Source of the DNA: Haloprofundus salilacus
Lineage (GTDB): Archaea; Halobacteriota; Halobacteria; Halobacteriales; Haloferacaceae
NCBI RefSeq assembly: GCF_020150815.1
Contig: NZ_CP083723.1
Coordinates: 558,001-622,000, forward strand
Direction: 5' to 3'
DNA: 64,000 nucleotides
Shown here: positions 11,583 to 47,429 of the stretch, piece by piece
Layout: every line of letters begins with the position of its first letter
How positions within the stretch are numbered: the first letter of the stretch is position 1
Translations under genes and position numbers: made by a program
Notes under the pieces: generated by a model
The model's database searches: none
What the model was told of the DNA's origin: nothing
What the model saw: the letters and a program-made list of their open reading frames with translations, nothing else

Positions 11583-12371
11583 TCACTCCGGAAACAGCTC
11601 TTCCTCGCGCTCTATCGACTTTATCTTCGCCACGTCCTCGTCGTCCAGATCGAGGTCGACGGCCGCGAGGTTCGCCCGCATGTGCTCTTCGCCGCTCGCC
11701 TTCGGAATCGTAACCACGTTCTCCTTCCCGGCCAGCCACGCGATGCTGACTGCTGCCTCGTCGGTATTGTGCTTCTCGGCGACCTCCGAGAGTTCCGACA
11801 CCTCGAACACTTTCCCGGCGGCCAGCGGCGAGTACGCGACGAGATAGTAGTCGTTTTCCTGCGCGTGGGAAACGAGTTTGGGCGAGTAGAACAGCGGATG
11901 CAACTCGGTCTGGTGGGCAAAAAGCGGCGTATCCAGCAGGTCGAGCGCCTCGTCGAGTTCAGAGAGAGTGAAGTTGCTCACGCCGACGTGTCGGATTCGG
12001 CCTGCGTCGCGGAGTTCGTCGAACGCGGCGAGCGTCCGCTCGGGATCGTACGCGTCGATAGGTCGGTGGACGTACAGCAGGTCCGCGTAGTCGACACCCA
12101 AACGCTGGAGGCTTCCGGTCGTGCTCGACAGCACGTCGTCGTAGCCGAGTTTGTCGGCCCACACTTTCGTCGCGACGACGACGTCCTCGCGCGGGACGTC
12201 GCTCTCGGCGAGTCCCTTTCCGACCACGTCCTCGTTGTCGTAAATCTGCGCCGTGTCGAGGTGTCGGTAGCCCACGTCGAGCGCGGTGCGGACGCTCTCG
12301 ACGCCCGACTCGCTGTCGAGTCCCATCGTGCCGAGACCGATCGGCGGGAGCGTCGTCTCGCGGCCGCTCAC
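11583..12371 (-). CDS. aldo/keto reductase
   Basis: The 262-residue enzyme has the TIM-barrel set of the AKR family. IGLGTMGL sits at the start, GYRHLDTAQIYDNEDVVG near residue 34 carries the catalytic Asp and Tyr, VATKVWADKL holds the Lys, and HRPID near 102 supplies the His. The NADPH-binding tail IPKASGEEH lies near 225. It reduces aldehydes or keto-sugars. The GTG start overlaps the stop of the HAD gene by four bases (GTGA), which implies translational coupling. A distinct paralogue lies at the right edge of the window. Confidence 0.88.
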   Translation of the reverse strand: MSGRETTLPPIGLGTMGLDSESGVESVRTALDVGYRHLDTAQIYDNEDVVGKGLAESDVPREDVVVATKVWADKLGYDDVLSSTTGSLQRLGVDYADLLYVHRPIDAYDPERTLAAFDELRDAGRIRHVGVSNFTLSELDEALDLLDTPLFAHQTELHPLFYSPKLVSHAQENDYYLVAYSPLAAGKVFEVSELSEVAEKHNTDEAAVSIAWLAGKENVVTIPKASGEEHMRANLAAVDLDLDDEDVAKIKSIEREEELFPE

Positions 12372-13117
12372 GCGCCGGTTCCTCCGTCGGAGTCGGCCGT
12401 GGTCTCCGTCTCGGCTTCGACAGACGGCGTCGGTGCGTCGCTGACACTGTCGCCGCTGACCGCCACGCCGTCGATGTCGAGCAGTCCGGCGAGCGACTCG
12501 ATCTCGTACGTCGGCTCGACGTCGAGGGGGTAGCCCGCGCGGTGTTCGCGACGGATGAACGCCGAGTCGAGTCCGGCGTTGTGCGCCGCGAGCACGTCGG
12601 TGCCGCTGTCGCCGACGAACAGCGCGTTCTCGGTGCCGAGGTCCGCGAGGGCTCTGTCGACGTAGTAGGTGTTCGGCTTCTTTCGCGCGACGCTCTCGGG
12701 GATGGGTTCGCGGCCGTACGCCGTCTCGAAGAGGTGTTCCACGTCGAAGTGAGAGAGGACGAAGTCGACCGTCGCCTGCTGGTTCGAGGAGACGATGCCG
12801 AGCGGGTGGTCGAGCGAGCGAACCACGTCGAAGTCGTCGTACAGCGCCTTCCGTCCGGCGCGAATCTCCGCCTGCTGTGCCCGCGAAGCACAGCGGTCGC
12901 GGGCGGCGAAGATCGTCTCCGCGTCGAGGCCGTAGGCGTCGGCGACGTCCGTCAGACCGTCGGGCGTGACGCCGAGGGTCATCGCCGCCACGTGGTCTGC
13001 GTGCGGGTCGTTAACGCCGCAGTCGACGAACGCTTCGCGGGCCGCGCGTTCGAGTACGGCGACCTCCACGAGGCTCACCAGCACACCGTCGTTGTCGAAG
13101 ATGATTGCATCGTACAC
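12368..13117 (-). CDS. HAD-family hydrolase
   Basis: The 249-residue protein begins with the HAD nucleophile motif IIFDNDGVLVS (residues 5-15; the first Asp is the nucleophile). Motif 2 is in GIVSSNQQATVDFVL near 115, a Lys is in RKKPNTYY near 150, and the acidic motif is VGDSGTDVLAA near 172. It should be a phosphatase of the phosphoglycolate/beta-phosphoglucomutase type. The GTG start at 13117 is chosen because the conserved domain begins there, and a T-rich stretch lies about 27 bases upstream. The last 40 residues are a disordered Thr/Glu tail. It is the first gene of the operon. Confidence 0.82.
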   Translation of the reverse strand: MYDAIIFDNDGVLVSLVEVAVLERAAREAFVDCGVNDPHADHVAAMTLGVTPDGLTDVADAYGLDAETIFAARDRCASRAQQAEIRAGRKALYDDFDVVRSLDHPLGIVSSNQQATVDFVLSHFDVEHLFETAYGREPIPESVARKKPNTYYVDRALADLGTENALFVGDSGTDVLAAHNAGLDSAFIRREHRAGYPLDVEPTYEIESLAGLLDIDGVAVSGDSVSDAPTPSVEAETETTADSDGGTGA

Positions 13118-13181
13118 TGCCGTGTACTGGCGACCGAGATGCCAAAAAGCATCCGCCGTCGAACGCACCGACAAACGAATC

Positions 13182-13187
13182 TTTTAG
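13182..13187 (+). promoter_or_regulatory. TATA-like box before the 14-codon leader ORF
   Basis: TTTTAG is centred 28 bases before the ATG at 13213, not before the ATG of the FAD oxidoreductase. The transcript is therefore expected to begin at or near the mini-ORF start. Confidence 0.45.
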
Positions 13188-13212
13188 CGCCTCGCGGCCA
13201 ACCGTTTTCCCA

Positions 13213-13257
13213 ATGGCGAAGTCCACAACGGTCGACACCGACTGGGAGGGACGATGA
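13213..13257 (+). CDS. 14-residue leader ORF overlapping the FAD oxidoreductase start
   Basis: An ATG at 13213 opens a frame encoding MAKSTTVDTDWEGR and stops at the TGA at 13255-13257. That stop overlaps the ATG of the next gene as ATGA. The TATA-like box upstream has the right spacing for this ATG, so the mini-ORF would be read as a leaderless message and the FAD gene by coupled re-initiation. Whether the peptide does anything is unknown. Confidence 0.4.
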   Translation: MAKSTTVDTDWEGR

Positions 13258-45142: not shown

Positions 45143-45193
45143 ATGTCTTTCCTGAGAACAGCATCGCCGCAAGTATTATCCGAGTGGTTCTAA
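45143..45193 (+). CDS. 16-residue leader ORF before the APC transporter
   Basis: The frame MSFLRTASPQVLSEWF stops at TAA 45191-45193, and one base later the transporter ATG begins. No Shine-Dalgarno is needed: the TATA box spacing predicts a leaderless mini-ORF. Translation of the transporter would then depend on re-initiation. The peptide is hydrophobic at its end and may have no function of its own. Confidence 0.45.
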   Translation: MSFLRTASPQVLSEWF

Positions 45194-45194
45194 G

Positions 45195-47429
45195 ATGGCT
45201 GACGAGGAGTTAGCCAAGGACCTCGGGTTGTTGTCGGCGATGACTATCGGTATCGGGACGATGATCGGCGCGGGTATCTTCGTCCTCCCGGGCGTTGCCG
45301 CCCAGGAAGCGGGTCCCATCGTCGTCGTCTCCTTCGTCGTTGGCGGTCTCATCGCGATGGTGAACGCGCTGTCGGTGTCGGAACTCGGCACGGCGATGCC
45401 GAAAGCCGGCGGCGGCTACTACTACGTCAACCGCGCGCTCGGCCCGCTTTTCGGGTCTATCGCCGGTCTCGGCGACTGGGTCGGCCTCGCGTTCGCTTCC
45501 GCGTTCTACTGTATCGGCTTCGGCCAGTATCTCGCCGAACTCGTCGGCCTCCCCGGCGTCCTGTTTCTCTCGCCGATACAGGTGGGCGCGCTGCTCGCTG
45601 GGTTTGTCTTCGTCGGCGTCAACTACATCGGCGCGAAGGAGACCGGCGGCGTCCAGACCGTCATCGTGCTCATTCTGTTGGCGATTCTCGGCGTCTTCGC
45701 CGTTGCGGGGTGGAGCTCCTTCGACTACGCGACGCTCGCCGGCGAGGACGGTCTCGCCCCCTTCGGCTTCGGGGCCATCCTTCCGGGAACCGCGTTAGTG
45801 TTCGTCTCCTTTCTCGGCTACGCGAAAATCGCGACCGTCGCCGAGGAACTCAAAAACCCTGGCCGTAATCTCCCTATCGCCATCATCGGCAGCGTCGCGC
45901 TCGTCACCGTCGTCTACGCCATCCTGGTGACGGTGATGCTCGGCGTCGTCCCGTGGACCGACTTGAGCCAGGATGCGCCGGTCGCGCAAGCTGCCGAAGT
46001 CGCGTTCCCGGCTGGTATCGCCGGCGCCGCGGCGACGGTGATGACGCTCGGCGCGCTGTTGGCGACGGCGTCATCGGCGAACGCCTCGATTCTCGCGTCT
46101 GCGCGCATCAACTTCGCGATGGGTCGCGAAAAAATCGTCACGAACTGGCTCAACAAGATTCACCCGAGGTTCGCGACGCCGTACCGCTCGATTCTGGTGA
46201 CCGGACTCATCATCATCGTCTTTATCTCGGCTTTGGGCCAGGACCTTGCGGTGTTGGCGAAGGCGGCGAGCGTACTGCACCTCATCGTTTACGCGCTGAT
46301 GAACGCCGCACTCATCGTCTTCCGCGAGTCCGACGCCGTCGATTACGACCCGGAGTTCCGCGTGCCGTTCTACCCGGTGACGCCCATCGCAGGGGCGCTG
46401 CTGTCACTCGGACTCGTCGCGTTCATGGACGACATCGAGATCGCGCTGTCGGCGGTGTTCGTCTTGGGCGCAGTGGTGTGGTACTTCGTCTACGCGCGTG
46501 AGAAAGTCGAGACGGGCGGGCTACTCAGTCGGTACATCCTCTCACGTTCGGAGGAAATGCCCGACGCGGCCGTCTCAGCTGCCAGCACGGTCAAACCCGA
46601 CGGCGGCGACTACCGCGTCATGGTCCCGCTCGCGAACCCCAAACACCAGACCGACCTCATCACGCTCGCCAGCGCCATCGCCAAACAGGAGAACGGCACC
46701 GTCGTCGCCGTCAACATCCAGCAGGTTCCCGACCAGACCTCGCTGGAGGCCGCTCGGCGGCAAGGCGACTACGACGCAGCCCACCGCATTCTCGAACGCG
46801 CCCGCGACGACGCCGAGACACTGGGCGTCCCCGTCGAGACACACACCATCCTCTCGCACCGGACGTTCGAGGAGGTGTTCGACGCCGCGCGAACGTACGA
46901 CGCCGACGTGACCGTCATGGGCTGGGGACCCGACGCCCACGGGTCGCCGGGGCGCGCCGAGAGCGCGATCGACGAACTCGCGAGGTCGCTTCCCTGCGAC
47001 TTCCTCGTCCTCCGGGACCGCGGTTTCGACGCGTCGCGCATCCTCGTGCCGACGGCGGGCGGCCCGGATTCGGACCTCTCGGCAGCCGTCGCCAGACTAC
47101 TTCGCACGGAGTACGTGTCGACGGTGACGCTCCTGCACGTCGCCGACGACGAGACCGATGGACGGGCGTTCCTCGAAGAGTGGGCGGCCGATCACGGTCT
47201 CGAAGACGCCGAACTGGTCGTCGAGGCGGGCGACGTCGAAGCGGCCATCGGCAAGCACGCCGCGGACGCGACGATGCTCGTCGTCGGCGCGACGGAGCGC
47301 GGCCTGCTCTCGCGGTTGTTCACCGATAGCCTCGTGTTGAACGTCGTCGACGAGGTGAACTGCTCGGTGTTGCTCGCGGAGAAAAAGCGGACGCGCAGTC
47401 TGCGCGAACGGCTGTTCGGAAACAGCTAA
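45195..47429 (+). CDS. APC-family permease fused to two Usp domains
   Basis: The 744-residue protein has an APC permease (residues 1-430, about 12 membrane segments). The substrate-binding start GIGTMIGAGIFVLPG lies near 19, and the broken helix six region near FVSFLGYAKIATVAEELKNPGRNLP. The C-terminal 270 residues hold two Usp domains (VMVPLANPKHQTDL near 475 and ILVPTAGGPDSDL near 615, with the ATP-loop-like GATERGLLSRLFTDSL near 695). It likely imports amino acids under control by nucleotide binding. It follows UspA and starts one base after a leader ORF. Confidence 0.9.
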   Translation: MADEELAKDLGLLSAMTIGIGTMIGAGIFVLPGVAAQEAGPIVVVSFVVGGLIAMVNALSVSELGTAMPKAGGGYYYVNRALGPLFGSIAGLGDWVGLAFASAFYCIGFGQYLAELVGLPGVLFLSPIQVGALLAGFVFVGVNYIGAKETGGVQTVIVLILLAILGVFAVAGWSSFDYATLAGEDGLAPFGFGAILPGTALVFVSFLGYAKIATVAEELKNPGRNLPIAIIGSVALVTVVYAILVTVMLGVVPWTDLSQDAPVAQAAEVAFPAGIAGAAATVMTLGALLATASSANASILASARINFAMGREKIVTNWLNKIHPRFATPYRSILVTGLIIIVFISALGQDLAVLAKAASVLHLIVYALMNAALIVFRESDAVDYDPEFRVPFYPVTPIAGALLSLGLVAFMDDIEIALSAVFVLGAVVWYFVYAREKVETGGLLSRYILSRSEEMPDAAVSAASTVKPDGGDYRVMVPLANPKHQTDLITLASAIAKQENGTVVAVNIQQVPDQTSLEAARRQGDYDAAHRILERARDDAETLGVPVETHTILSHRTFEEVFDAARTYDADVTVMGWGPDAHGSPGRAESAIDELARSLPCDFLVLRDRGFDASRILVPTAGGPDSDLSAAVARLLRTEYVSTVTLLHVADDETDGRAFLEEWAADHGLEDAELVVEAGDVEAAIGKHAADATMLVVGATERGLLSRLFTDSLVLNVVDEVNCSVLLAEKKRTRSLRERLFGNS

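Follow-up and report, generated by a model that had tools for sequence, protein, structure and literature searches.

A predicted leaderless mini-ORF that may deliver ribosomes to a renalase-like oxidoreductase gene in Haloprofundus salilacus

Introduction

Leaderless small ORFs whose stop codon overlaps the start codon of the next gene as RTGA have been described in mycobacteria, where this linkage is reported to be more conserved than the encoded peptide and where the coupling was proposed to serve ribosome delivery (Shell et al. 2015, PMC4633059). Translational coupling has also been reported for overlapping gene pairs of the haloarchaeon Haloferax volcanii. In nine such pairs the downstream gene was no longer translated once a stop codon had been placed in the upstream one, a Shine-Dalgarno (SD) motif was reported to be non-functional for de novo initiation, and its removal mostly lowered reinitiation without abolishing it, so that the motif is not essential (Huber et al. 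2019, PMC6728339). Coupling is reported to drop to near zero at a spacing of about +22 nt (Huber et al. 2023, PMC10666635), and for E. coli the final 15 nt of the upstream gene are enough. Among H. volcanii genes with a mapped start, 72% were reported as leaderless and 28% as leadered, and small ORFs of 15–31 aa were noted ahead of normal genes in a survey that, as described, sought them only in 97 leaders of 150–250 nt (Babski et al. 2016, PMC4983044). The idea that a short uORF may deliver ribosomes is set out in a review that names −4 as the commonest spacing and whose examples, as presented there, are bacterial (mycobacterial MIRUs) or artificial constructs (PMC12548453).

Here we describe a 14-codon frame at the predicted 5′ end of the message for a renalase-like oxidoreductase gene of Haloprofundus salilacus. 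It lies in a stretch of 64,000 nt, referred to below as the window, to whose numbering all positions refer unless a contig is given. The locus resembles the small ORFs of PMC4633059 in its (predicted) leaderless start, its non-conserved peptide, its RTGA overlap and its proposed function. Unlike that bacterial system, as far as it is described, it belongs to an archaeon and in several genera has an SD-like stretch before the downstream start; its layout is kept over many genera (over families, for a purU-like gene), and a switch between a uORF and an N-terminal tail is visible in sister haloarchaeal genera. The −4 overlap and the SD motif inside the upstream ORF are shared with the H. volcanii pairs (PMC6728339, PMC10666635). 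Those pairs consist of two ordinary operon genes and are reported to depend strictly on upstream translation, whereas the upstream member here is a mini-ORF at the message end for which such dependence is only predicted. The survey of PMC4983044 dealt with long leaders, whereas the short leader here would be the ORF itself, and the present layout would presumably count there as an ordinary short leader. The ribosome-deliverer idea of PMC12548453 is the same, now in a haloarchaeon. In a literature search confined to the main text of openly accessible papers we found no description of leaderless NTGA-coupled mini-ORFs in haloarchaea. The archaeal case would combine the overlap coupling of Haloferax, known from ordinary gene pairs, with leaderless coupled mini-ORFs of the mycobacterial type, and the locus is best read as a haloarchaeal counterpart of the latter.

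Results and discussion

The mini-ORF and its predicted promoter

The mini-ORF opens at ATG 13213–13215 and closes with TGA 13255–13257, which shares bases with the enzyme ATG at 13254–13256 (Table 1). The initial annotation had this frame and its stop/start overlap correct to the base, and had placed the TTTTAG box equally exactly, its centre lying about 28 nt and its first T 31 nt before the A of ATG 13213. The enzyme matches Pfam Amino_oxidase (9.6e-20) and NAD_binding_8 and is similar over its full length to renalase 4zcc (E 6e-25). Its start at 13254 is within one residue of the starts of directly leaderless orthologs in genera g7 and g26 (relatives are cited here by genus number). Since the HAD hydrolase gene upstream is divergent, there is no co-directed gene directly ahead of the enzyme gene, which must therefore have its own promoter and a message that begins between the two genes.

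Table 1. Features of the mini-ORF locus and of two genes elsewhere in the genome with a similar layout
Feature	Position	Strand	Basis or remark
Predicted promoter, BRE-like CGAA (13176–13179) then TATA-like TTTTAG (13182–13187)	13176–13187	+	Promoter matrix (PWM) and conservation
Mini-ORF (uORF), 14 codons + TGA, MAKSTTVDTDWEGR	13213–13257	+	Predicted leaderless; genus-conserved
Shine-Dalgarno-like GGGAGGG within the mini-ORF, 3 nt ahead of the enzyme ATG	13244–13250	+	16S-tail duplex energy
Stop/start overlap ATGA	13254–13257	+	GTGA in one congener
Renalase-like FAD oxidoreductase, 354 aa	13254–14318	+	Pfam, 4zcc match, ortholog starts
HAD-family hydrolase gene, divergent	12368–13117	-	Upstream neighbour of the enzyme gene
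Presumed CetZ-type tubulin/FtsZ-superfamily gene	G000:C1:303493–304671	-	Outside the window; TIGR00065 match below cut-off
purU-like gene, formyltetrahydrofolate deformylase-like (NF004684)	G000:C1:292510–293484	+	Outside the window

Expectation maximization on 234 upstream regions, taken from 400 kb of the genome that exclude the window, yielded a BRE/TATA matrix. The signal that it picked up lies about 28 nt ahead of predicted starts, suggesting that leaderless starts are common in H. salilacus. In the held-out window, position 13213 scores 5.5 at offset 0, a value reached by 0.76% of 18,230 positions, and ATG 13254 scores −0.6, with 26% of window positions as high. The arrangement typical of haloarchaeal leaderless promoters, in which BRE/TATA precedes an ORF's first base by about 28 nt, is thus present at 13213, which supports the mini-ORF start as the position where the predicted promoter would put the transcript start.

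Conservation in the genus and in six further genera

The enzyme was found in 155 of 170 genomes of the family, and its upstream region was read for 90 matches, those left unread being mostly from g21 and g18. All five genomes of the genus keep the box, the spacing, the ATG, the 14 codons and the overlap (GTGA in one), and both the predicted promoter CGAA/TTTTAG and the SD-like GGGAGGG are identical in each. The stretch from the box to the enzyme start is free of indels, while one of about 26 nt occurs in the upstream flank. Over seven genera, the own genus and six others, a mini-ORF ends exactly at −4 in all 33 loci, with a length of 9–29 codons and a mostly unrelated sequence: 16 codons in g2, 21 in g5, 11 in Haloferax (g9), 14 in the Halogeometricum-type g10, 9 to 14 in g11 and 28 to 29 in g16. 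An RTGA overlap (ATGA, or GTGA in one congener) and a linkage kept while the peptide drifts, both characters of the mycobacterial small ORFs, are found here, as is, at 13254, a −4 overlap of the kind (−4 or −1) that marks termination–reinitiation pairs. A sequencing or assembly frameshift was ruled out because the arrangement is identical in the five genus genomes and recurs in 15 Haloferax loci.

Mini-ORF loss from relatives with the same promoter had been named in the initial annotation as evidence that would overturn its reading. We looked for such loss; the TCTTTTAG box is present in all 15 Haloferax loci read, and each of them keeps the mini-ORF. Across 20 loci from the genus and Haloferax, the mini-ORF ATG follows the box at 31 nt in all but one, where the spacing is 32 nt, while its distance to the enzyme is 41 nt in Haloprofundus and 32 nt in Haloferax, a difference of three codons. 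This conserved spacing, like the promoter placement, predicts a message that begins at the mini-ORF start codon. The same annotation had proposed comparing length, stop overlap and codon bias among close relatives. Length and overlap are kept in all five genomes, and the variable sites follow no codon pattern.

Promoter scoring assigned 28 of the 90 loci to the uORF start and 44 to an in-frame leaderless start, with 12 unclear and 6 ties; for the 33 loci of the seven genera the result was 26 uORF, 5 ties, 1 unclear and 1 in-frame. Two observations count against a leaderless uORF: in three of the five g10 loci the promoter score of the enzyme start is within 1.5 of that of the uORF start, or higher, and at one g11 locus no promoter stands out clearly. 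Single uORF calls in g6 (1/9) and g12 (1/4) are probably chance, as their congeners lack them.

The Shine-Dalgarno-like stretch

The 16S rRNA 3′ tail GGATCACCTCCT was taken from both 16S copies of the H. salilacus genome, and duplex energies were computed over the 20 nt that precede the enzyme gene. The duplex with GGGAGGG has −10.5 kcal/mol, which only 5–10% of shuffled sequences reach. An SD motif inside the upstream ORF, usual but not essential in termination–reinitiation, is therefore present, although weaker in g10 and g16. Mean duplex energies per genus range from −6.6 to −10.5 kcal/mol in uORF genera (7 genera, 33 loci) versus 0 to −6.0 kcal/mol in in-frame genera (9 genera, 30 loci; Mann-Whitney p=0.00017), the in-frame set being hand-picked clear cases that omit g3, g6, g13, g21–g24, three g19 loci and one g26 locus. 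Compared with shuffled sequence, Haloprofundus and Haloferax have a good signal, but the stretch is no better than shuffles in all five g10 loci, both g16 loci, the g2 locus and one g5 locus of two, so that part of the contrast between uORF and in-frame genera reflects G-richness.

In-frame tails and overlapping uORFs

Sister genera have their first start codon in the reading frame of the enzyme. When mapped on a tree of 52 enzymes, representatives rather than all 90 loci, the uORF label needs five changes, at least four of them forced by well-supported branches, suggesting that the uORF has been gained or lost several times. Genera g10, g16 and g19 group in one clade of this tree. Both g10 and g19 have a GGTAAAGC-type box that lies 22–23 nt from the first start codon. 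Measured from this codon to the nucleotide-binding motif, the distance breaks the frame in all five g10 loci and keeps it in 8 of 12 g19 loci scanned, the other four comprising three without a recognised box and one in which the script picked a wrong GTG. Both the g10 mini-ORF and the g19 in-frame tail begin VTDR..., and in some the first residues agree, for example VTDRTTSDDGEAKR (uORF, g10, L053) and VTDRVDSSVDSPTR (enzyme tail, g19, L047). We read this pair as one leaderless start codon that may serve either a tail or a uORF, and it provides the best evidence that the uORF start would be a used start.

Proposed mechanism and alternative explanations

The reading that we consider quite probable is that of a leaderless uORF which delivers ribosomes by termination and reinitiation, with loading on the 5′ AUG at 13213. 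The message would start at A13213 or within a few bases of it, the ribosome would bind the 5′-terminal AUG by leaderless initiation, translate the 14 codons and terminate at UGA 13255–13257, and reinitiation at the overlapping AUG 13254, aided by the purine-rich GGGAGGG, would yield the renalase-like enzyme. The peptide would have no function of its own, the 5′ AUG serving to load the ribosome and the frame to deliver it to the enzyme start. In sister lineages, an in-frame 5′ start codon would give a short N-terminal tail instead, and changes of frame would interconvert tail and uORF. The locus itself contributes the promoter placement, the frame, the overlap, the SD-like stretch and their conservation, to which a transcript start at 13213, translation of the mini-ORF and coupling by reinitiation are added by inference. 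As the design is kept in relatives while the peptide changes, the mini-ORF probably brings ribosomes to the enzyme, and the H. volcanii data on coupling, SD motifs and leaderless messages, taken together, likewise suggest a mini-ORF that loads and delivers, with an irrelevant peptide. Of the proposals in the initial annotation, coupling by four-base overlaps agrees with the dependence on upstream translation reported for H. volcanii pairs (PMC6728339). The mini-ORF as carrier of the transcript start gains from the predicted promoter at 13213 and from the start codon, frame and overlap kept in relatives, but its suggested role as a control point finds no support, with no sign of regulation and a peptide that is not conserved.

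An ordinary short 5′ leader, transcribed from near 13213, with direct initiation at 13254 and an incidental 5′ ATG, seems unlikely to us. Leadered genes are no rarity in H. volcanii (28% of those with a mapped start, PMC4983044) and reinitiation there is reported not to need an SD motif (PMC6728339), but an incidental ATG fits poorly with a 5′ ATG or GTG and frame kept in 33 of 33 loci from seven genera despite changes in length, or with the CetZ-like loci described below, whose start distance of 17, 20 or 23 nt always changes in steps of three; moreover, the SD motif is reported as non-functional for de novo initiation in H. volcanii (PMC6728339). The message might also begin near 13233, from a second promoter with GTTTTC at 13204–13209, and so bypass the mini-ORF with a 21-nt leader. 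The second matrix peak of 5.3 at 13233 speaks for this and against the mini-ORF reading, yet the T-run is altered in one congener and absent from Haloferax leaders that keep the upstream box, and 13233 carries no start codon; we regard such a start as very unlikely.

Equally little probability attaches to a regulatory leader peptide, in which the peptide or its codons would respond to some signal and turn the enzyme on or off. Conservation of the mini-ORF and its overlap with the gene speak for this, as does the proposal of regulatory, cysteine-rich leaderless uORFs in mycobacteria (PMC4633059), but the peptides are wholly different between genera (MAKSTTVDTDWEGR, MLAGLTRGVAR, MDATEAPDPTRAVDRTEAVRS), neither a conserved peptide nor a run of signal codons, as expected of an attenuator, is seen, and the few variable sites within the genus (1, 2 and 1 at codon positions 1, 2 and 3) show no codon pattern, on which ground a conserved peptide function was rejected. 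Chance alone, with a start codon happening to lie 28 nt past an AT-rich box and a frame happening to stop at ATGA, is hardly credible. About 10% of out-of-frame starts do end at −4, and a similar leaderless mini-ORF at 45143 is not conserved, but the present one is kept in seven genera.

How much is expected by chance

Among out-of-frame start codons in 862 kb of the H. salilacus genome, a frame ending at −4 was seen for 72 of the 713 that lack a promoter (about 10%) and for 10 of the 33 that have one (p=0.0017). Mini-ORFs that reach −4 by chance, without promoter placement, also occur in relatives (g4, g6, g19 and g21). The −4 overlap alone was rejected as evidence because it is common by chance (about 10%) in GC-rich DNA. 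No excess of promoter-placed −4 mini-ORFs was seen in 400 kb of Haloferax marinum (3/20 vs 75/405, p=1); the genome-wide enrichment is modest, and absent in this Haloferax sample. What stands above chance is the combination of a predicted promoter at 13213, a mini-ORF and an overlap, kept in relatives.

Similar layouts before other genes

Two further genes of H. salilacus, both outside the window, show the same layout (Table 1). The first is a tubulin/FtsZ-superfamily gene, which we take to be a CetZ. In a sample of 30 loci (L199–L228), from 59 genomes with a match, 27 have a predicted leaderless uORF of 6–8 codons with an NTGA overlap at −4, the uORF being present in 13 of 15 genera read. The start-to-start distance is only ever 17, 20 or 23 nt, and the three loci without a uORF ATG are from g15 and g17. 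For the purU-like gene (L229–L257, L299–L321), 30 loci of the family sample comprise 23 with a predicted leaderless uORF of about 8–14 codons, 4 in-frame, 2 ties and 1 unclear, and such a uORF is also present at 21 of 22 loci of a class-wide sample that reaches other families (f2, f3, f4, f6 and f7), often with GGAGGTG ahead of the gene start.

We lean, if only slightly, towards regarding these uORFs as an old and widespread haloarchaeal class of leaderless ribosome-loading mini-ORFs of 6–29 codons with NTGA on the gene's own start, whose members would include those of the renalase-like oxidase, the CetZ-type tubulin and the purU-like gene. Their peptides would drift, small frame changes would switch tail and uORF, and many "short leader" transcripts may belong here. 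As internal SD sites would not recruit ribosomes, a gene that needs a leader or does not tolerate a tail would be given a 5′ mini-ORF. If true, this would explain in simple terms how haloarchaeal genes with a leader can be translated without SD-driven initiation, start and leader annotation would be corrected, and some genes, a tubulin-like cytoskeletal one among them, would be expected to lose much of their expression after a single start-codon change.

Among 305 gene pairs shared with a congener (G004), eight promoter-supported mini-ORFs are conserved, five of them exactly at −4, versus 14 of the 80 that lack such support (p=0.0105). Promoter-placed −4 mini-ORFs shared with this congener occur at G000:C1:657782 (+), with 11 codons ahead of an HTH-regulator-like gene (PWM 11.7), and at G000:C1:159476 (+), with 19 codons ahead of a membrane-protein-like gene.

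Within the window, a leaderless-looking mini-ORF of 16 codons at 45143–45193, with a TATA-like TATTTAAA upstream and a TAA-G-ATG junction (+1 spacing), precedes a C-terminally extended amino acid permease (45195–47429), and was not seen at the 15 other loci read, from a set of 20, in relatives. The permease stretch 45195–46694 has a 98% identical second copy at G000:C1:373371–374861 (−), which suggests a recent duplication or transposition.
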